A stretch of DNA of 64,000 nt from an uncultured Paracoccaceae bacterium. GTDB lineage: Bacteria > Pseudomonadota > Alphaproteobacteria > Rhodobacterales > Rhodobacteraceae. Location of the stretch: assembly GCA_947492825.1 (NCBI GenBank), contig CANLNT010000001.1:434001-498000 (forward strand). The letters are read 5' to 3'. Each line of letters starts with the position of its first letter. The stretch's first letter is position 1. A model generated the notes under the pieces. The model made no database searches, was not told the origin of the DNA, and saw only the letters and a list, made by a program, of their open reading frames with translations. A program made the position numbers and the translations under genes. Positions 1-64,000 of this stretch are shown one piece after another.

Positions 1-111
1 AGTTCGTCAATTTTGTTGAGAGAACTTAACAAAGAGCGTGTTGTGATCGAGGAACGTCGGTCAATGATCGACGGAGCACCGAATGTTCTAATAAACTCAC
101 ATACACCTTGA
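1..111 (+). CDS. C-terminal end of an unidentified gene (partial)
   Basis: Reading frame 1 is open from the window edge to a TGA at 109-111 and encodes 36 residues, charged and helix-like, ending in VLINSHTP. It would be the tail of a gene that begins left of the window. I do not recognise it. The composition is AT-rich like the rest of the left end. A separate TTG-started frame (108-308, 66 aa) overlaps its end and could be a second gene, a frameshifted continuation or noise. Seen: the open frame only. Confidence is low because 36 codons is weak evidence. Confidence 0.3.
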   Translation, partial: SSSILLRELNKERVVIEERRSMIDGAPNVLINSHTP

Positions 112-611
112 TCCATTTCTGGACGGGTGTCCTGCCTAGAAATGAAGAGGTGACCCAGGTTAAGCTTGAGTTCGATTACACGAAAGGAAGCTTCGAGAAC
201 TTGTATGTCAGGGGTGTTGGAATACGCACACATCAAGAAGAAATAGCACCTTTCTTGGGTGATATGTTCGATTCTGTAACTACGGGTCATATCAGTTTCC
301 TTTGTTGACTGCTGATATGAGCAGGATCCCATAACTTGATGTAAAAGCGTCAACTATTCAAAATAAACACGCATAGATTCTTGGAGCAGGTATTCAAATA
401 CCCCAAAAGGGAGAGCGTTTAAGAATTCAAGAAATTCTTTTTCGACCGAACAAGAGTTGCGACGATATCAACTTATTCCACGATTTCTACTGGCCGCCAA
501 GATGCTCAGGAAGGAACGTTTCACCTAATCTATCTTTACGACAACAGTTGATGAACGTACTTCTGGTTGTGGGTATAGCTCCCACAGCCCGTTGGAGTTG
601 TTCCGGCGTGT
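112..611. other. Gene-poor AT-rich stretch
   Basis: About 500 bases without a convincing gene. A 66-residue frame starting with TTG at 108 (ends 308) has no visible ribosome binding site and no recognised motif; its sequence (FWTGVLPRNEEV near the start) is not obviously non-coding, so a decayed gene remnant is possible. Nothing else was recognised here. Confidence 0.4.
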
Positions 612-685: not shown

Positions 686-1681
686 ATGAGACAACACAAC
701 GCCACCTTCGCCAATTTCATCTGCCGGTTCGGTGACAACAAGGTTCTGTTGGATTACGCCAAGCGTATCGTTATCCCTGCGTTCACCAAGGACACGTATG
801 TCCGCAGTTACGGCAAGAAGACGCACTACCACTTCTATGAAACCGAGCTGATGAACCTTGCCGAATACGATGATGATCCGATCATGGTTCTCGCCGGACG
901 GTTTGTAAAACAGACAGAGCTGACACGTACCCAAATCTACGATGATGAAAAAGGCTTGGTTCAAGATGAGGCTTCCCTGCTGTCAGCCCCTTCAGCGTTT
1001 TTCGTGCTGATCCTGAACAACCACCGGCTCATCTACTTTCCCGAAACACCGCATGCCCCTGACATCAACGCATTTCGCGTCACCGCCGAGCAGTTTCTCC
1101 GTCAGCGGCACAAAGAATACATCGACCGACGATACGAAAAAACCCGTGGTGATGACAAGCCGCCGACAAAGAAATCTCTGTATGAAGCCCACCCACGACC
1201 TTCTTTGGAAGTTGTGCCACTTACTGGCAAAGCAGACATCGCCGGGTTTTTGCGCCGTTTCGAGAAGTTGAAGAAGATCAACTTCCGAGTTGTCAAACCA
1301 AACGACGACCTCCACGCGGGCGATATACTTGGGCAAGTCAGGGAGCTGTCAGACGCGTTGGGTTCGACCAGCACGAAGGTTACAGCGTCGAGTGCCGATG
1401 GCCTCGATATTCCGGCTGCAATCGAGGCGGTGACAGAGGCCACAGGTTCAGGTAATCAGGACGTTAGTGTGTCCGGTGTGGATACTAATGGGAACGCCCT
1501 GTCGGGAAACAACGAGCATTTCAAGCTCAGCGCCGAGATCGAAAGCGTCCCTCTTGTTAAGGCGTCGCTGGTCAAACGACTTGTCGAGAAGTTCAGCCAG
1601 TTGAGGTCGGAAGGCTCGATCAGTGCGCCGAAGGCTGATGCAAATTCGGCGAAGGTTAAGAAACTGAAAAAGCTAATATAA
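686..1681 (+). CDS. Uncharacterised soluble protein, first gene of a two-gene module
   Basis: 331 residues, no signal peptide or membrane segment. A ribosome binding site (ttgagg) precedes the ATG. Residues 1-170 look like a folded alpha/beta domain. Around residues 90-130 is a hydrophobic strand region (APSAFFVLILNNHRLIYF) followed by a helix rich in Arg and Lys. Residues about 235-285 are low-complexity Ser, Thr, Asn and Gly. The tail is Lys-rich (KVKKLKKLI). The stop codon TAA is directly followed by the ATG of the membrane protein gene, so the two are almost certainly co-translated. The segment around the hydrophobic strand reminds me loosely of DUF4747-type proteins, but I cannot verify that. 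AT-rich, next to an integrated element: probably horizontally acquired, and a defence role is possible but unproven. Confidence 0.6.
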   Translation: MRQHNATFANFICRFGDNKVLLDYAKRIVIPAFTKDTYVRSYGKKTHYHFYETELMNLAEYDDDPIMVLAGRFVKQTELTRTQIYDDEKGLVQDEASLLSAPSAFFVLILNNHRLIYFPETPHAPDINAFRVTAEQFLRQRHKEYIDRRYEKTRGDDKPPTKKSLYEAHPRPSLEVVPLTGKADIAGFLRRFEKLKKINFRVVKPNDDLHAGDILGQVRELSDALGSTSTKVTASSADGLDIPAAIEAVTEATGSGNQDVSVSGVDTNGNALSGNNEHFKLSAEIESVPLVKASLVKRLVEKFSQLRSEGSISAPKADANSAKVKKLKKLI

Positions 1682-57055: not shown

Positions 57056-58462
57056 CTAGGCGGCGGATGACCAGACGCTGACCGCGTCGCGCCCGGCAGA
57101 TTTGGCGGAGTATAGTGCGGCATCGGCCCGTTCGAAAACTTGCCCCAAGGCTGTGTCATCAGCGGCCTGATCCATCGCATCGCTGTGCACAGCAATCCCG
57201 ACCGAGGCAGTCACCGTCAGCGGGTCATAACCGCGGCCCATGCTGAAAGGCGTGCCACCGATCAGTTTGCGCAGGCGCTGTCCGATCTTTTCGGCGTTCA
57301 GGATGTCAGTGTCCGGCAGCGCCACAAGGAATTCTTCTCCTCCGATGCGGGCGACCAGTTCGCCGTTTTGCATGGCCGATTGAAGACGTTTCGACAACTC
57401 GCGCAGGACGCGGTCGCCACCGGCATGACCAAAGCGGTCGTTGATGGTTTTGAAGTGATCAAGGTCAATCATAATCAGCGCATAGGGCTGCCCGCTGTCG
57501 CGCGAATGACGCGCAAGGCGCTGCAAATGCGCCTCTGCGTGGCGGCGATTTGACAGGCCGGTCAGCGGATCCGTTACAGCAGCCTGCAACCCTTCGCGGA
57601 CGCGGGCGCGCAGGCGATCCTCAAACGTTTTGCTGCGGATCAGGCGTTGCGTGCGCAATACCAGTTCTTCGCGCGGGGCCCCTTCAAAGATGATGTCAGC
57701 CGCTCCCAGATCTAGCAGCATGGCGGCCAGTTCTGTGTCACCTTCGCGGACGATAACCAATTGAGCGGCATGGCGCGTCTGGTCGCGGGCGCGGAAGTCG
57801 CAGACCATCTGCAACAGTCCCGCCTGTTCGATCATGCCATCGGCCCCGTTGACCACCAACACATCCGGTGTGCCACGGCTAAGCATTGTTGCAAACTGTC
57901 GCGCGCCGGAAATCAGCTGCACAGGCTGTTTCAGGCCGTCCTGCAGTTCATTGAGGAAGGTAAAGCCTGACACGGCATTGTAGCTGACCACCGACACCCG
58001 CGCCGGTGCAAGGCGCGGTGCGGCGTCTTCTTCAAAGCCAAAGGCGCTGCCATGCCCAGTGCTGTCGCGGTGCAACAAATCAAAATTGGCATTCCGGCGG
58101 CGGAGCAGGCTGCGCACCCGGCTGAGCAGCAGCGCATCGCTGATCGGGCGGGGCAGGACATCATCCGCACCGGCGTCCAGCGCGCGAAACCGTGCGCGGG
58201 CGGTTTGGGTGGATCCGGTCGAGACGATTGCAACATCGCGGGTCGTGCTGCTGTCACGCAGCGCACGACAATAGGCGTAACCTTCTTCCATTTGATCCTG
58301 CAGGTTCATCAGGATCAGATCAGGTTTGGCGCGGGCGATCAGGTCTGTGGCCTCAGTGAAAGTTTCGCAAGTGTCGACCATATATTGCGCCGCCATCATC
58401 TTTACCTTCAGAACGATGCGGTTGGTCGCCACATGGTCGATGATCAATATGCGTCCGGACAT
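57056..58462 (-). CDS. PleD-type diguanylate cyclase with degenerate first receiver
   Basis: 468 residues: REC1 (1-120), REC2-like adaptor (about 150-285) and GGDEF (about 300-460). The cyclase active site is intact (RIGGEEFLVALPD). REC1 is degenerate: the acidic pair at 9-10 reads DH, the phosphoacceptor at 53 is Asn (DLILMNLQD), and the usual KP pair is RP. The product-inhibition I-site (RxxD, located nine residues before GGEEF in PleD) reads QxxE. So the enzyme probably makes c-di-GMP without phosphorylation control or product feedback. Confidence 0.9.
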   Translation of the reverse strand: MSGRILIIDHVATNRIVLKVKMMAAQYMVDTCETFTEATDLIARAKPDLILMNLQDQMEEGYAYCRALRDSSTTRDVAIVSTGSTQTARARFRALDAGADDVLPRPISDALLLSRVRSLLRRRNANFDLLHRDSTGHGSAFGFEEDAAPRLAPARVSVVSYNAVSGFTFLNELQDGLKQPVQLISGARQFATMLSRGTPDVLVVNGADGMIEQAGLLQMVCDFRARDQTRHAAQLVIVREGDTELAAMLLDLGAADIIFEGAPREELVLRTQRLIRSKTFEDRLRARVREGLQAAVTDPLTGLSNRRHAEAHLQRLARHSRDSGQPYALIMIDLDHFKTINDRFGHAGGDRVLRELSKRLQSAMQNGELVARIGGEEFLVALPDTDILNAEKIGQRLRKLIGGTPFSMGRGYDPLTVTASVGIAVHSDAMDQAADDTALGQVFERADAALYSAKSAGRDAVSVWSSAA

Positions 58463-58549: not shown

Positions 58550-58828
58550 ATGAGCCCCGAATCCGCCCAAACGATCGCCCTGCAGGCCCTTGGCTGGCTG
58601 GTCAGCAATGAAGAGCTTTGCCCCACGTTTATGGGGGCAACGGGCACATCAGTGGATGATTTGCGGGCCCGCGCGGGAGAGCCTGATTTTCAGGCCTCTG
58701 TCCTGGAATTTCTGACCATGGACGACGCCTGGGTCATGGCATTTTGTGACACGGTAGGGTTGAAATACGAAGACCCCTTAACAGCGCGTTATGCCTTGCC
58801 CGGTGCCGAACAGGTTCACTGGACCTGA
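58550..58828 (+). CDS. DUF3572 family protein
   Basis: 92 residues: ESAQTIALQALGWLVSNEEL, a short helix bundle, then FLTMDDAWVMAFCDTVGL. The DUF3572 pattern is typical of alphaproteobacteria and frequently sits beside a PleD-like gene. No function known. The gene ends inside the 3' end of the convergent SRPBCC gene, overlapping by 13 bases. Confidence 0.88.
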   Translation: MSPESAQTIALQALGWLVSNEELCPTFMGATGTSVDDLRARAGEPDFQASVLEFLTMDDAWVMAFCDTVGLKYEDPLTARYALPGAEQVHWT

Positions 58829-59373
58829 AGCGCCTCTTCGATCCGCGACAAAATCCGCGCGGCTTCTTCAGGCACAGATTTGTTCCAGCGGCGGGTCTTG
58901 AGCCATCCCGGCTTGGTGCTGGTACGCGCGGTGATGGACAGATCAACCAGGGTGCCACCTTTGAGCGGACTGAAGTCAAAGGTGATTTCTGTGATGATCG
59001 GCGGGTTGCCGTAGGTTTTGTCAAAAAGTCGGTCCAATCGCGCTGGCACGTCGCTGTCCACGGGCGGCAGGCGTTCGGCGGGGTTGTAGGGCAAGAACCG
59101 GTCGGGGCGATGGGCCACGGTCAATTTCAATGGGCGGTCTGCGGTCAACGTGGTTTCGGTCATTTCAAGGTCAACGGTGCCCCAGCTAAAGCGCGCGACC
59201 ACCTGATATCCCGCCTCGCCGGGGGAACCCCAGACCGGGGTTGTTGACAACAGCCCGCCCGGCAGATGCGGGTCCACCGCCTGTTCGGGGGGCTGGATGG
59301 CTGCATCAAAGACCGCAGCACATGGGGCTTCAAAGCGGTATTGGCAGTGATATGTCAGGTGATGCAGGCTCAT
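58816..59373 (-). CDS. SRPBCC-like lipid-binding fold protein
   Basis: 185 residues from the ATG at 59373, overlapping (ATGA) the stop of the reductive dehalogenase gene. It begins SLHHLTYHCQYRFEAPCAAVFDAA and contains alternate beta strands and a final long helix (EEAARILSRIEEALQ), which is the START/SRPBCC shape with a deep hydrophobic pocket. Because it is co-translated with the dehalogenase, it might bind an aromatic substrate or its product; this is inference. Confidence 0.65.
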   Translation of the reverse strand: MSLHHLTYHCQYRFEAPCAAVFDAAIQPPEQAVDPHLPGGLLSTTPVWGSPGEAGYQVVARFSWGTVDLEMTETTLTADRPLKLTVAHRPDRFLPYNPAERLPPVDSDVPARLDRLFDKTYGNPPIITEITFDFSPLKGGTLVDLSITARTSTKPGWLKTRRWNKSVPEEAARILSRIEEALQVQ

Positions 59374-62300
59374 CTGTCGAGCTTGAGGATGCCGCCAGGA
59401 TGTGCGGCGCGGCTTTGGCACAGGATCATCGCGGATTTGCGTTGATCCTTGGACAGCACAAAGTCGCGGTGTTCGACTTCGCCCGAGAGAACGCCGCACT
59501 TGCAGACACCACACAGCCCGTCGCTGCACTTCAGATCGACATGCTCGCCCATGCGGATCAGCGCGTCACTTGCGGTTTCATCGGCGCTGACAGCAATCTG
59601 TCGGCCATCGCGCAACTCCAGCGTGAAGGGGTGGTTTTCATAGTCGGGTGTTTCGGGGACGGCGAAGTATTCCAGATGGCGCGCGTCTTCGGGAAAGCCG
59701 TTGGCGGCGGCGGTCGCGATGACCGCATCCATGTAGGCGTCCGGCCCGCAGGTATAGACATGCGCGCCGTCGCGGTAACGCAGCAACGTATCAAGATTTG
59801 CGCGGGAGCCGTTGGCGGAGCAGTGGATATGCACCTTGTCGGCCCAGGGCACCGCTGTCAGCGCTTGTAGAAAACCGGCCTGATCGCGGGATTTAATGCT
59901 GTAATGCAGCTCAAAACCAACACTTTTCCGATGTAGCGCATGAGCCATCGCAATCATGGGGGTGATGCCGATGCCGCCGCCCATTAGCAGGCTGTGAGAG
60001 GCCGTTTCATCCAAGGGAAAGTGGTTGATCGGATGGCTGACAAAGACACGTCGACCCTTGGTGAAGATCCGGTGCATCAGCTTTGAGCCGCCGCGCCCCC
60101 GATCTTCGCGCAGCACAGCGATTTGATAGCAGGACCGGTCGGCGGGATCAGAGCAGAGCGAGTATTGGCGGAAGAATTCGGGCGCCACCAAAACGTCGAT
60201 ATGCGCGCCCGCGGTTGCTGGCGGCAGGTCCGCGCCATCGCTGCGGCGGAAGGTATAAAGCGTCACATCGGCCGACATCTGATCGACCGCGTCGATCACC
60301 ACCGGGATCACCGGGCTGGGCGTGGTGTCGGCGGTGTAGACGTGTTCAGGCGGCGTGCCATTGGCGCGGCGACGCTGGTGTTCGGCAGCCGGGATCATCG
60401 CCTTGTAGGCCGCGATGCCGGCCTCGCGATCCATCGGCGCGGGCCAGGGGTGCGGCGGCGGTGCCAGCGGGGCAGGGTAGACGGCCAACGTCTGGTCTTC
60501 GAACCGCAAATCTAGGTCAGTCTGCAACTCGCGCTGGTTCACCGGATGGGGCGAAGGGCGGTAGGCCCCGTCATCGACCATTTCCAAATCCCACCACCAC
60601 TTTTTCACCGGGTTGATGCGCCCCTTGCCGACCAAATCATCCAGCTTTGCCAGGGCCTTGGCCGATGCAGGTGCGGTCATGGCCAGTTTGCGAAACGGCT
60701 CTTCGGCAAACAGCCCTTCCAGGTTCCACGGGCAGGTTTTCATGCAGCGCCCGCACATCGCGCCGTTCTTTTGGCTGACCCGGTAAGTGGTGCATTTCTG
60801 GCTGTCGGATTTCCAAATCTCATAGCCATTGAACATCAGCTTTGGCCCCGCCGTGATCGCGCCAGAGGGGCATTCGCGGGCGCATTTGTTGCAAGCCTCG
60901 CAGAACTTTTGCAGGCCGAAATCAATCGGCTTGTCGTGGGTCATGGGCATGTCGGTCGTGACCACGCCGGATTTCAGCCGGGGCCCAAGGAACGGATTGA
61001 GGATCACCTCTCCGATCCGGCTGACTTCGCCCAGACCGGAAAGCAGCAACAAGGGCGGGTGCAGTACTTCATCATCCATCACCGAATGCACGCGGGCGGT
61101 GTAGCCAAGGTTGCGCAGATGCTGCGCCAGCACCCCACCCAAAAGCGAGAACCGCAAGTAGGCCCGCATGGATTGCGCACAGGCGATCCAGTCATCGCCC
61201 GATGCGCCCTCCATCGTTTCGTGGCCCTGATCCACGATCATCGAGATCGCATTTTTGTGATAGGGAACAATGGGTTCGCCAGCTGCATCGTGGCTGTAAT
61301 AGGCCCAGTCGGGACAGGCCGAGAGGCCCACTGCATCCACACCCAGAAAGTAGAGTGCGGCCTTGATGTTGTCGGCATTGCGCGCTGCGTCAGTGGTAGA
61401 GGGGTGGCGCGGTCCGGCCTCTCCATCCTGGAGCAGGACAAAGGCCCCCAGCGACGGGCGAAAGGCAAAGGCGGCAGCAGATTTGCGCACGTAATTGCCG
61501 TTCTTGGTGGCCTCTTGCACCTGTTTGCCCATGTCGCCGAACAATCCGCGTGCAAATAGGTTTGCCCGTTTGGGCACCCGCGCGACATTGGCCGTGTCGA
61601 TATAGGTTGTGGGGTCACCCACCCGTTTGAGCGTTTCAAACGGGTGTGGACCATCGGCAAACTGGCGTTGTGCAAAGGGGTCGCGGGTGCGGGCGGTCTT
61701 AGCGTGGTTGCCAAGACTAGCGGTATAGCTGACAGGTGGCTTTGCGTGTGGCGACAGGGGTTTATCGGCGGCAAAGGCCAGGTTGGTGGTGATGGCAGCC
61801 AGCCCATAGCGGTCGCCGGTAAAGGGATTGGTCAGCCATTTGCCGCGCTGCAACAGCCCCGCGGACAGCCCAAGCGCGTCCAGATGCACGTCGCTGGCCG
61901 CCATCGAATGCGCGCGCGCCTCGAACCCCAAGGTGCGGATGTAGCTGGCCAGCGTAACGGCGGTTTCCATGCCGCGCAGGCAGGCGCGCTGCGCCTGTGC
62001 GCCCACGATCCAGCCTGCGCCGGGTTCGTCATGTTCGGGATCGCGCGGCATGTCATAAAGAAACACCAAGGCGTGGCTGTGGTGGCGGCACTCAACCGGG
62101 GGCCGCGCCATGTTTTCGCGCAGCCCCGCCATGATCACGTCGATGCCTGCGGCCAGCGACTTGGGCTGCATGGTACGCAGCTTGTCCGCCAACCGGTCCA
62201 CGTCGGGGTTGATCAGGGGCGTATCCAGCCAAGCCTCTGCCGGGATTTCGCAGGTGCCGACCATGCTCGCGTCACAATAATAGCCGAATGATTTCAGATG

Positions 62301-62555
62301 ATTGGCGCGTTCCGTCAGGTCCTTTGGGATCTCGGCCATCTCGGCCTTGATCAGCCCGTCACGGGTTGCGTCCAGCATCGCCTGATAGTCCTGCATCGCG
62401 TTCACGATGCTGGTTGGGTCATCGGGACGGCGAAAGGACAGGCCGGTCATGGGTGCCAGTCCACGCAGATCAACGCTGTCCGCACGGGCCAGTTTTTCCA
62501 GTGGGAATGGCCCCAGATGGAACGGACGGTTGCGGTATGAACGAAGCTTTGGCAT
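59370..62555 (-). CDS. Self-sufficient reductive dehalogenase fused to a ferredoxin reductase and ferredoxin
   Basis: 1061 residues. The B12-dependent reductive dehalogenase module covers about 1-660. Two 4Fe-4S motifs: C552, C555, C558, C562-P and C588, C601, C604, C608-P. The B12 loop has GLGEVSRIGEVILNPFLGPR (508-527). An internal duplication is visible: residues 182-267 and 456-543 align over their whole length (WIxxAQxxRAxLR, LRNLG/IRTLG, ARxHS, LNPF/LTNPF). The C-terminal part is a flavin reductase (RQYSLCSDPADRSC, GGGIGITPMIAMA) and a 2Fe-2S ferredoxin (C1010, C1015, C1018, C1046). Such fusions, like the Nitratireductor enzyme NpRdhA and BhbA, are oxygen-tolerant catabolic enzymes that use NAD(P)H to remove halide from halogenated phenols. 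No Tat signal and no membrane anchor protein (RdhB) are present. Coupled to an SRPBCC gene. Confidence 0.92.
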   Translation of the reverse strand: MPKLRSYRNRPFHLGPFPLEKLARADSVDLRGLAPMTGLSFRRPDDPTSIVNAMQDYQAMLDATRDGLIKAEMAEIPKDLTERANHLKSFGYYCDASMVGTCEIPAEAWLDTPLINPDVDRLADKLRTMQPKSLAAGIDVIMAGLRENMARPPVECRHHSHALVFLYDMPRDPEHDEPGAGWIVGAQAQRACLRGMETAVTLASYIRTLGFEARAHSMAASDVHLDALGLSAGLLQRGKWLTNPFTGDRYGLAAITTNLAFAADKPLSPHAKPPVSYTASLGNHAKTARTRDPFAQRQFADGPHPFETLKRVGDPTTYIDTANVARVPKRANLFARGLFGDMGKQVQEATKNGNYVRKSAAAFAFRPSLGAFVLLQDGEAGPRHPSTTDAARNADNIKAALYFLGVDAVGLSACPDWAYYSHDAAGEPIVPYHKNAISMIVDQGHETMEGASGDDWIACAQSMRAYLRFSLLGGVLAQHLRNLGYTARVHSVMDDEVLHPPLLLLSGLGEVSRIGEVILNPFLGPRLKSGVVTTDMPMTHDKPIDFGLQKFCEACNKCARECPSGAITAGPKLMFNGYEIWKSDSQKCTTYRVSQKNGAMCGRCMKTCPWNLEGLFAEEPFRKLAMTAPASAKALAKLDDLVGKGRINPVKKWWWDLEMVDDGAYRPSPHPVNQRELQTDLDLRFEDQTLAVYPAPLAPPPHPWPAPMDREAGIAAYKAMIPAAEHQRRRANGTPPEHVYTADTTPSPVIPVVIDAVDQMSADVTLYTFRRSDGADLPPATAGAHIDVLVAPEFFRQYSLCSDPADRSCYQIAVLREDRGRGGSKLMHRIFTKGRRVFVSHPINHFPLDETASHSLLMGGGIGITPMIAMAHALHRKSVGFELHYSIKSRDQAGFLQALTAVPWADKVHIHCSANGSRANLDTLLRYRDGAHVYTCGPDAYMDAVIATAAANGFPEDARHLEYFAVPETPDYENHPFTLELRDGRQIAVSADETASDALIRMGEHVDLKCSDGLCGVCKCGVLSGEVEHRDFVLSKDQRKSAMILCQSRAAHPGGILKLDR

Positions 62556-62605: not shown

Positions 62606-63304
62606 ATGATTTCAGGTGTGATTTTCGACAAGGACGGCACGCTGTTTGATTTCAACGCGACTTGGGGCGCTTGGTCGGCGGGCATGATTGCGGCAGAGGC
62701 GGGCGGCGACCCGGATCTGACTGCGCAGCTGGCCGATGTGCTGGGCTATGATCTGAACGGCCGCGTTTTCCGCCCCGGATCAATCGTGATTGCCAGCACC
62801 GTGCAAGAGGTGGCCGATGCCATCCTGTCAGTCGTGCCGGGGGACCGTGCGGCCCTGTTGCAGCGGATGGATGCCCACGCCGGACAGGTCGGGCAGGTGG
62901 CGGCCGCGGACCTGCCGGAACTGATCGGCGCATTGGATGCGATGGGTCTGAAGCTTGGCATTGCGACCAACGACAGCGAGGCCCCCGCGCGGATGCATCT
63001 GGATCGGGCCGGAATCGTGCAGGCTTTTGATTTTATTGCCGGTTACGACAGCGGATTTGGCGGCAAACCAGCACCGGGGCAATTGCTTGGGTTCTGTGCG
63101 GCGACCGGGCTGGACCCCGCAGCCTGTGTCATGGTCGGCGACAGCACCCATGATCTGCGCGCAGGGCGGACGGCAGGGATGCGTACCGTTGGTGTTCTGA
63201 CCGGCCCGGCACCGGATGCGGAACTGGCCCCTCTTGCCGACGCGGTATTGGCATCCGTTGCGGAATTGCCGGGTTGGATCACGAGTGTGAACAAAAACGA
63301 CTGA
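62606..63304 (+). CDS. HAD-superfamily phosphatase (phosphoglycolate phosphatase-like)
   Basis: 232 residues from the ATG at 62606, gaggg upstream; the longer frame is rejected. Motif I FDKDGTLFDF (D8, D10), motif II in IATNDSEAP, motif III Lys in GFGGKPAPGQL and motif IV MVGDSTHDLRAGRTAGM. This is the Gph-like group with an alpha-helical cap. Divergent from the reductive dehalogenase gene. Substrate unclear: phosphoglycolate or another small phosphate ester. Confidence 0.87.
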   Translation: MISGVIFDKDGTLFDFNATWGAWSAGMIAAEAGGDPDLTAQLADVLGYDLNGRVFRPGSIVIASTVQEVADAILSVVPGDRAALLQRMDAHAGQVGQVAAADLPELIGALDAMGLKLGIATNDSEAPARMHLDRAGIVQAFDFIAGYDSGFGGKPAPGQLLGFCAATGLDPAACVMVGDSTHDLRAGRTAGMRTVGVLTGPAPDAELAPLADAVLASVAELPGWITSVNKND

Positions 63305-63372: not shown

Positions 63373-64000
63373 ATGGCAGACACACCCAGACGACGCGGCG
63401 GCGGGCGCGCAGGTAATGCAGCGCGGCGCGGACAGGCCAGCATCAGCCAGATGCCCTGGCGCATTCCGGTCAACACCGACCGCCCGACAGAGCCTTTGGC
63501 CCCCGAGGGTGTGCAGGCGATCCACGATGGCGCGATGCGTATCCTCGAAGAGATCGGGATTGAGTTTCTGAACGAAGAAGCCATCGAGATTTTCAAAGAG
63601 GCGGGCTGCAAGGTTGACGGCACCAACGTCAAGATGGGCCGCGACTGGGTGATGGAAATGCTGGGCCACGCCCCCAGTCAGTTCACAATCACCCCGCGCA
63701 ATCCTGACAAACAGATCACCATTGGTGGCAAGCATATCCTGTTTGGCAATGTCTCTTCGCCGCCCAATTATTTTGATCTTGAGATCGGAAAAAAGGTCTC
63801 TGGCAGCCGCAAACAATGCGCGGATTTGCTGCGGCTGACGCAGTATTTCAACTGTATCCATTTTGCGGGCGGCTATCCGGTGGAACCGGTCGACGTGCAC
63901 GCCTCTGTCCGACATCTGGATGTGGTGCACGACAAGATGGTGCTGACCGACAAAGTGGCCCATGCCTATAGCCTTGGCAAAGAGCGGGTCGAAGACGTGA
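63373..64000 (+). CDS. Trimethylamine methyltransferase family protein (MttB-like), partial
   Basis: The ATG at 63373 is preceded by ggaggg; the frame stays open through the window end (209 codons seen). It begins ADTPRRRGGGRAGNAARRGQ, then has the MttB-superfamily features ILEEIGIEFLNEEAIEIFKE, and ITPRNPDKQITIGGKHILFG, GGYPVEPVDVHASVRHLDVV. The rest lies beyond the window. Non-pyrrolysine members of this family demethylate glycine betaine, proline betaine or carnitine, and this organism makes glycine betaine from carnitine through the 49-53 kb operon. The pyrrolysine position was not reached, so the subtype is open. Confidence 0.88.
   Translation, partial: MADTPRRRGGGRAGNAARRGQASISQMPWRIPVNTDRPTEPLAPEGVQAIHDGAMRILEEIGIEFLNEEAIEIFKEAGCKVDGTNVKMGRDWVMEMLGHAPSQFTITPRNPDKQITIGGKHILFGNVSSPPNYFDLEIGKKVSGSRKQCADLLRLTQYFNCIHFAGGYPVEPVDVHASVRHLDVVHDKMVLTDKVAHAYSLGKERVEDV

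Follow-up and report, generated by a model that had tools for sequence, protein, structure and literature searches.

A putative self-sufficient reductive dehalogenase and its optional SRPBCC neighbour in an uncultured Paracoccaceae bacterium

Introduction

An enzyme class in which a reductive dehalogenase carries a vestigial duplication of its B12 domain and is mostly fused to a phthalate dioxygenase reductase (PDOR) has already been described (PMC10463259). A gene that appears to encode a member of this class, termed rdhA, was analysed together with an overlapping gene for an SRPBCC protein in a 64,000-nucleotide stretch of DNA (the window) from an uncultured Paracoccaceae bacterium (contig CANLNT010000001.1, positions 434,001 to 498,000). 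The initial annotation of the window had claimed novelty for the domain arrangement of RdhA; this is reduced, since the arrangement had been published (PMC10463259).

In the available text of PMC10463259 the enzyme from Jhaorihella thermophila (JtRdhA) is reported to carry out aerobic, NADPH-coupled debromination and deiodination of phenols, using 1 NADPH per product in air, and no dehalogenation was seen of the chlorinated compounds tested. As described there, JtRdhA resembles the window RdhA in being a self-sufficient RdhA-PDOR fusion with a duplicated B12 domain, the same catalytic residues and a marine host; partner genes are not reported in that text. The marine, aerobic life of the window's host is predicted from its named relatives.

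BhbA from Comamonas sp. 7D-2 (plasmid pBHB) shares the full-length architecture of the window RdhA with 48.7% identity over residues 3–1060, and its catalytic and cluster residues are the same. It differs at positions 355 and 459, which are both Ser in BhbA and are Tyr and Cys in the window RdhA, and its gene lies near protocatechuate 4,5-dioxygenase, transporter-component and insertion sequence (IS) genes; the plasmid was typed as conjugative. NpRdhA (PDB 4ras and 6zxu) is 45% identical to the B12/Fe-S part over 505 aligned residues, but has no fused reductase (PMC10463259) and differs at several pocket positions, given below. Ros_A3X954 from Roseobacter sp. MED193 is a marine Roseobacter debrominase reported to have no twin-arginine translocation (TAT) signal; it is of a shorter type, as judged from its 4Fe-4S motifs at 283–294 and 337–345, and was reported to be oxygen-sensitive (PMC13101508). 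MED193 carries a full-length fused RdhA (L095) besides this shorter enzyme; L095 was considered as the debrominase tested in PMC13101508 and rejected, because the motif positions given there are those of the shorter protein.

Identity and proposed reaction of RdhA

The window RdhA scored 199.5 bits with the NCBIfam reductive dehalogenase model RDH (TIGR02486; cut-off 160.35), and Fer4_16/Fer4_7 (551–610) and Fer2 (982–1049) exceeded their Pfam cut-offs. When PDB sequences were searched, the closest chains for the B12/Fe-S part were those of NpRdhA (E 2.7e-160). Residues 753–1051 matched phthalate dioxygenase reductase 2pia (E 4e-51), and for residues 752–1051 self-sufficient P450s were also among the closest chains; 6kbh was matched with E 4e-56. 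The Pfam, NCBIfam and PDB queries lacked Met1, so residue numbers from those run one low. A Pfam PF13486 search gave no match in the genome, nor in 14 of 14 control genomes, and was discarded as uninformative. These matches bear out the initial annotation, which had read the protein as joining a duplicated B12 module, two 4Fe-4S clusters, a flavin reductase and a 2Fe-2S ferredoxin. Binding sites for flavin mononucleotide (FMN) and 2Fe-2S clusters follow known motif rules; the allotment of cysteines to individual clusters (Table 1), and FMN as the probable flavin, are drawn from relatives. No twin-Arg motif was seen by eye in the N-terminus, MPKLRSYRNRPFHLGPF, and the neighbours, where a membrane anchor gene might lie, were gph, DUF3572 and pleD in the Pfam scan.

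In an alignment of 99 rows including BhbA, Tyr466, Lys528, Arg592, Ser462, Met463 and Phe334 were identical in every row. They align with Y426, K488, R552, S422, M423 and F291 of NpRdhA, whose conserved residues have been assigned roles such as hydroxyl binding and proton transfer (PMC7565698). All eight 4Fe-4S cysteines were likewise identical in 99/99 rows, as were the four 2Fe-2S cysteines in the 98 of 98 rows having that domain.

From these domains, residues and homologies, which like the gene overlap described below were observed directly, the window RdhA was read as a catabolic, self-sufficient reductive dehalogenase of the BhbA/JtRdhA type, with a probability of roughly 0.87. Its predicted cofactors, electron path, reaction and substrate class follow those of relatives, by analogy with which brominated phenols (the bromo/iodophenol class) are likely substrates. 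Homology thus supports both the single-chain, NAD(P)H-driven dehalogenase and the brominated phenols proposed by the initial annotation.

The reaction envisaged follows the general corrinoid mechanism. NAD(P)H would reduce the FMN of the C-terminal phthalate-dioxygenase-reductase domain, and electrons would pass from the 2Fe-2S cluster through the two 4Fe-4S clusters to base-off cobalamin in the second B12 module. There Ser462, Lys528 and Arg592 would lodge an ortho-bromo or ortho-iodo phenol, cobalt would take the halogen and Tyr466 would donate a proton, with release of halide and phenol. The first, putatively vestigial B12 module would take the place of the second subunit found in the respiratory dimer. 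As a guess, the physiological purpose might be to detoxify natural marine bromophenols or to open them to catabolism. The genome also gave a match to CobN above the cut-off, which is in keeping with cobalamin synthesis by the host; CobN was the only part of that pathway searched.

Several points weigh against this assignment. JtRdhA was compared through its published description only (PMC10463259). The Pfam scan of the neighbours recognised no gene of aromatic-ring catabolism, and no match to 4-hydroxybenzoate hydroxylase TIGR02360 exceeded the cut-off in the genome (best 30.5 compared to 538.7 bits); a growth role for RdhA is therefore unproven. A marine debrominase of another, short type lost activity in oxygen (PMC13101508), so that oxygen tolerance of RdhA is not to be assumed. 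The AlphaFold model of the whole RdhA, obtained from 16 close rows, was poor (pLDDT 61.6, on the predicted local distance difference test, with much of the catalytic core below 50); it was not used and supports nothing on the core.

Distribution, clades and pocket residues

Matches spanning residue 1–6 to 1060/1061 of RdhA were found in 16 of 61 genomes, a set made up of the window's own genome, which is counted among the 16, and 60 relatives. Of 380 genomes sampled across the order, taken to be Rhodobacterales, 184 contained a match with E no higher than 1e-100, and coverage among the matches listed ran from residue 1–8 to 1058–1061. RdhA is an ordinary enzyme for its lineage and common in the order, where fused, reportedly oxygen-tolerant B12 dehalogenases are hence widespread. 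At least 542 relatives were confirmed in the genome collection; the best 80, which were kept, came mostly from Rhodobacteraceae, Paracoccaceae and Roseobacteraceae, which is the basis for taking the order to be Rhodobacterales; Oricola and a Hyphomicrobiales bin were among the exceptions. An NpRdhA-type RdhA in a 767-residue open frame (L017, genome G037), with no reductase-domain match there, came from another family of the class.

The tree of the 99 rows was built by a quick method that left 27 of 96 inner forks open, and contained a clade A (46 rows, including the window) and a clade B (49 rows), both with support 99. Some members were plasmid-borne (8 plasmid records). With the conserved flanks of clade A (gph, DUF3572 and pleD), rdhA has the look of a gene long established on the chromosome in this lineage and not of one lately acquired from a plasmid.

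The clades are set apart at position 459, which corresponds to A419 of NpRdhA, a residue lining the pocket of the second bromine (PMC7565698). Of the 46 clade A rows, 43 have Cys here (2 have Ser and 1 has Thr), whereas all 49 clade B rows have Val and BhbA has Ser. Further pocket changes from NpRdhA to the window RdhA were F290 to Leu, F310 to Tyr, P311 to Val and N452 to Val. Because pocket positions differ, fine substrate preference is predicted from the sequences to differ by clade, and the clade-diagnostic residue at the second-halogen pocket provides a testable handle.

The overlapping SRPBCC gene

The 185-residue product of the gene downstream of rdhA gave no Pfam, NCBIfam or PDB sequence match. 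An AlphaFold2 model from a 4-row alignment (pLDDT 86.9; predicted template modelling score, pTM, 0.80) was compared with known structures using Foldseek, and the best match was 3put (E 1.1e-7, probability 1.00). The modelled product has the START/Bet v 1-like helix-grip fold of 3put, 3otl and PR-10, with Foldseek probability 1.00 in the rows listed, but its identity to such proteins was 10–16% among the 50 matches listed. At its ATG the gene shares 4 nt (ATGA) with the end of rdhA, stop codon included, and the initial annotation, which had named the neighbour as an SRPBCC protein linked to rdhA, agrees with this overlap and with the modelled fold. When seven relatives were scanned with Pfam, those at L035, L085 and L052 exceeded the cut-off of PF10604 (27.4), those in G108 (24.9) and G699 (13.5) fell below it, and L067 and G030 gave no match.

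A plain sequence search found the gene in 3 of 61 genomes, own included. With the first profile it was detected in 3 of 295 genomes of the family and, among 385 genomes of the class, in the window's own alone; a 4-row profile detected it in 7 of 390 genomes from the order. An iterated profile, searched over open reading frames of 90 residues or more at 98 rdhA loci, gave seven hits, in 7/46 clade A, 0/49 clade B and 0/3 other loci. The survey of other genomes suggested by the initial annotation thus found the gene recurrent in clade A but not in clade B, and this excludes it as a fixed partner of the RdhA family. All seven hits share the strand of rdhA; five are located at its 3′ end, L085 lies just upstream and L052 1.28 kb downstream. 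Of the 46 clade A loci, 39 were without a hit by the iterated profile, among them L066, whose contig stops 37 bases past rdhA; in all, four contigs of the clade stop less than 700 bases beyond rdhA, and genes there could be missed. First-profile E-values were 3.9e-13 for L035, 4.2e-5 for L085 and 0.0039 for L052, while L062 and L067 were unlisted up to E 10 and entered the iterated profile at the third round; without these two the count is 5/46. L062 (no Pfam scan) and L067 (no Pfam match) are putative SRPBCC genes by the iterated profile only.

The rdhA stop was overlapped by 1, 4 or 11 nt in all seven downstream junctions examined, from four lineages (window, G001, G699, with an uncertain TTG start, G820, which is the same genome as L035, G829, L062 and L067), or in five junctions from three lineages when the profile-only L062 and L067 are left aside. 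The overlap is genuine and found repeatedly, yet the gene itself is optional. A 10-row profile detected it in 10 of 380 genomes of the order, seven of them at E <1e-50: in G000, G688, G699, G820 and G829 it lies beside rdhA, and G108 and G030 have no rdhA. The weak matches were G771, which is not among the genomes with an rdhA match, and G959 and G172, which have rdhA on another contig. G000 and G688 each contained one further weak hit elsewhere.

A reading in which the SRPBCC gene neighbours rdhA by chance or is bound to the locus, with a function of its own and no partnership with the dehalogenase, has a probability a little short of one half. It would account for G108, where the gene stands between gph and DUF3572 exactly where rdhA is missing (L133:7689-10748), for G030, where it lies elsewhere in the genome, and for its rarity at large and among the clade A and clade B loci counted above. 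The SRPBCC protein also diverges far faster than RdhA, with 32% and 78% identity respectively between the window and G699. Against a chance neighbour stand the overlap in 7/7 junctions of four lineages, the further copy just upstream of rdhA in L085, and the finding that every family hit in the 98 loci falls within 1.3 kb of rdhA. The G108 locus is the reverse of most clade A relatives, with SRPBCC present and rdhA absent.

A clade A module, in which rdhA and the fast-evolving SRPBCC gene would be translationally coupled and the SRPBCC protein would deliver poorly soluble halophenols or take the product, tuning substrate range with Cys459, was considered rather improbable. The role of substrate carrier is a guess; if functional, the overlapping gene would be a new accessory of reductive dehalogenation. 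Identity ranks of SRPBCC and RdhA agreed over 10 gene pairs (rho 0.77, 0/5000 permutations as high). Co-evolution was rejected as the reading of this correlation, which is driven by close pairs, with the other SRPBCC pairs at 9–32%; because of these close pairs, vertical descent and repeated recruitment are indistinguishable. To our knowledge three features are new: the separation of the two clades together with the pocket residue that marks it, the marR-rdhA locus, and the SRPBCC gene that repeatedly overlaps rdhA. Only the last was searched for, and no paper pairing a reductive dehalogenase with SRPBCC was found in the openly licensed literature searched.

Alternative reaction and duplicated B12 module

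QueG shares its fold and chemistry with RdhA, and a B12/Fe-S reductase of this fold could use the same electron path to remove a group other than halogen, for example by QueG-like epoxide reduction. RdhA does match TIGR00276, but weakly (23.4 bits, cut-off 200), whereas its score with the RDH model exceeds that model's own cut-off and the halophenol-binding Ser, Lys, Arg and Tyr are invariant even in BhbA, leaving this alternative a slim chance. Reductive dehalogenation is the preferred reading of RdhA, with catalysis placed in the second of its two B12 modules.

When residues 80–285 were compared with 385–550 using hhalign, the probability was 99.8 (E 4e-29, 158 columns, 28% identity), compared to 0.1 or less for seven control pairs of other regions; the E-values are for single pairs, and row L066 and rows with half gaps were excluded from the comparison. 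Both blocks that the initial annotation had described as repeating, 182–267 and 456–543, lie inside this match. In the N-terminal copy the position of Tyr466 was Cys in 77, Ala in 18, Gly in 3 and Ser in 1 of the 99 rows, Lys was found at the Lys528 position in 0/99 and Ser at the Ser462 position in only 3/99 (lost in 96/99), while the second module keeps Tyr, Lys and Ser in 99/99. Only the second module, as judged from the alignment, retains the catalytic residues and the first is apparently vestigial; the duplication proposed by the initial annotation holds as a repeat, but not as two working modules. The duplicated N-terminal domain has been described as vestigial, without cobalamin binding and mimicking the dimer interface of respiratory enzymes (PMC10463259). 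An enzyme with two centres and cobalamin in both modules is extremely improbable: the strong repeat and the partly kept GDDW motif of the N-terminal copy (Gly in 98/99, second Asp in 74/99 and Trp in 98/99 rows, first Asp not kept) would suit it, but the Tyr and Lys are missing from that copy in every row and the equivalent domain of NpRdhA was reported not to bind cobalamin (PMC10463259).

Locus flanks

The features of the locus are given in Table 1.

Table 1. Features of the rdhA locus (nucleotide positions refer to the window, residue numbers to RdhA).
Feature	Position	Strand	Remarks
PleD-like response regulator/GGDEF protein	57056..58462	(-)	PF00990, PF00072
DUF3572 protein	58550..58828	(+)	PF12096 E 1.3e-31; convergent
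SRPBCC (START/Bet v 1-like) protein	58816..59373	(-)	185 aa; AlphaFold2 model and Foldseek
rdhA	59370..62555	(-)	ATG start, 1061 aa, no internal stop
RdhA N-terminal B12-like module, putatively vestigial	residues ~80-285		
RdhA B12 catalytic core	residues ~385-550		
RdhA two 4Fe-4S clusters	Cys 552/555/558/562 and Cys 588/601/604/608		
RdhA FMN/NAD reductase	residues ~745-970		
RdhA plant-type 2Fe-2S ferredoxin	Cys 1010/1015/1018/1046		
HAD phosphatase (gph-like)	62606..63304	(+)	PF13419/PF00702; divergent, 50 bp from rdhA start
MTTB (trimethylamine methyltransferase family)	63373-63999	(+)	PF06253 E 2e-68; runs off window

Upstream of rdhA, a gph-like HAD gene lies within 3.2 kb at 41 of the 46 clade A loci and at 0/52 loci outside the clade; gph, like PleD, is a label that we take to fit these genes. 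Downstream of rdhA, 38/46 clade A loci carry DUF3572, in 36 of them at a centre-to-centre distance of no more than 2.4 kb, and 34/46 have pleD at up to 3.5 kb. The ends of the DUF3572 and SRPBCC genes overlap by 13 nt in the window (58816-58828). At L116 (genome G011) gph and DUF3572 adjoin without rdhA between them, and a clade B rdhA lies ~4–5 kb off.

A MarR regulator was located upstream on the rdhA strand in 29 of 46 clade A loci and adjoins rdhA in 28; at L085 the SRPBCC gene stands between the two. Among the 52 loci outside clade A a related MarR was found in only one (L026), on the opposite strand. At L031 (2988-3458) and 28 further clade A loci the MarR gene forms an apparent operon with rdhA, and its product is a candidate halophenol sensor. 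The window's branch is without MarR, only the 50 bp given in Table 1 separating rdhA and gph. Beyond gph lies the MTTB gene, whose family includes corrinoid-dependent members and which is here found beside a putative corrinoid dehalogenase; many clade A loci retain the gph-MTTB pair close to rdhA.

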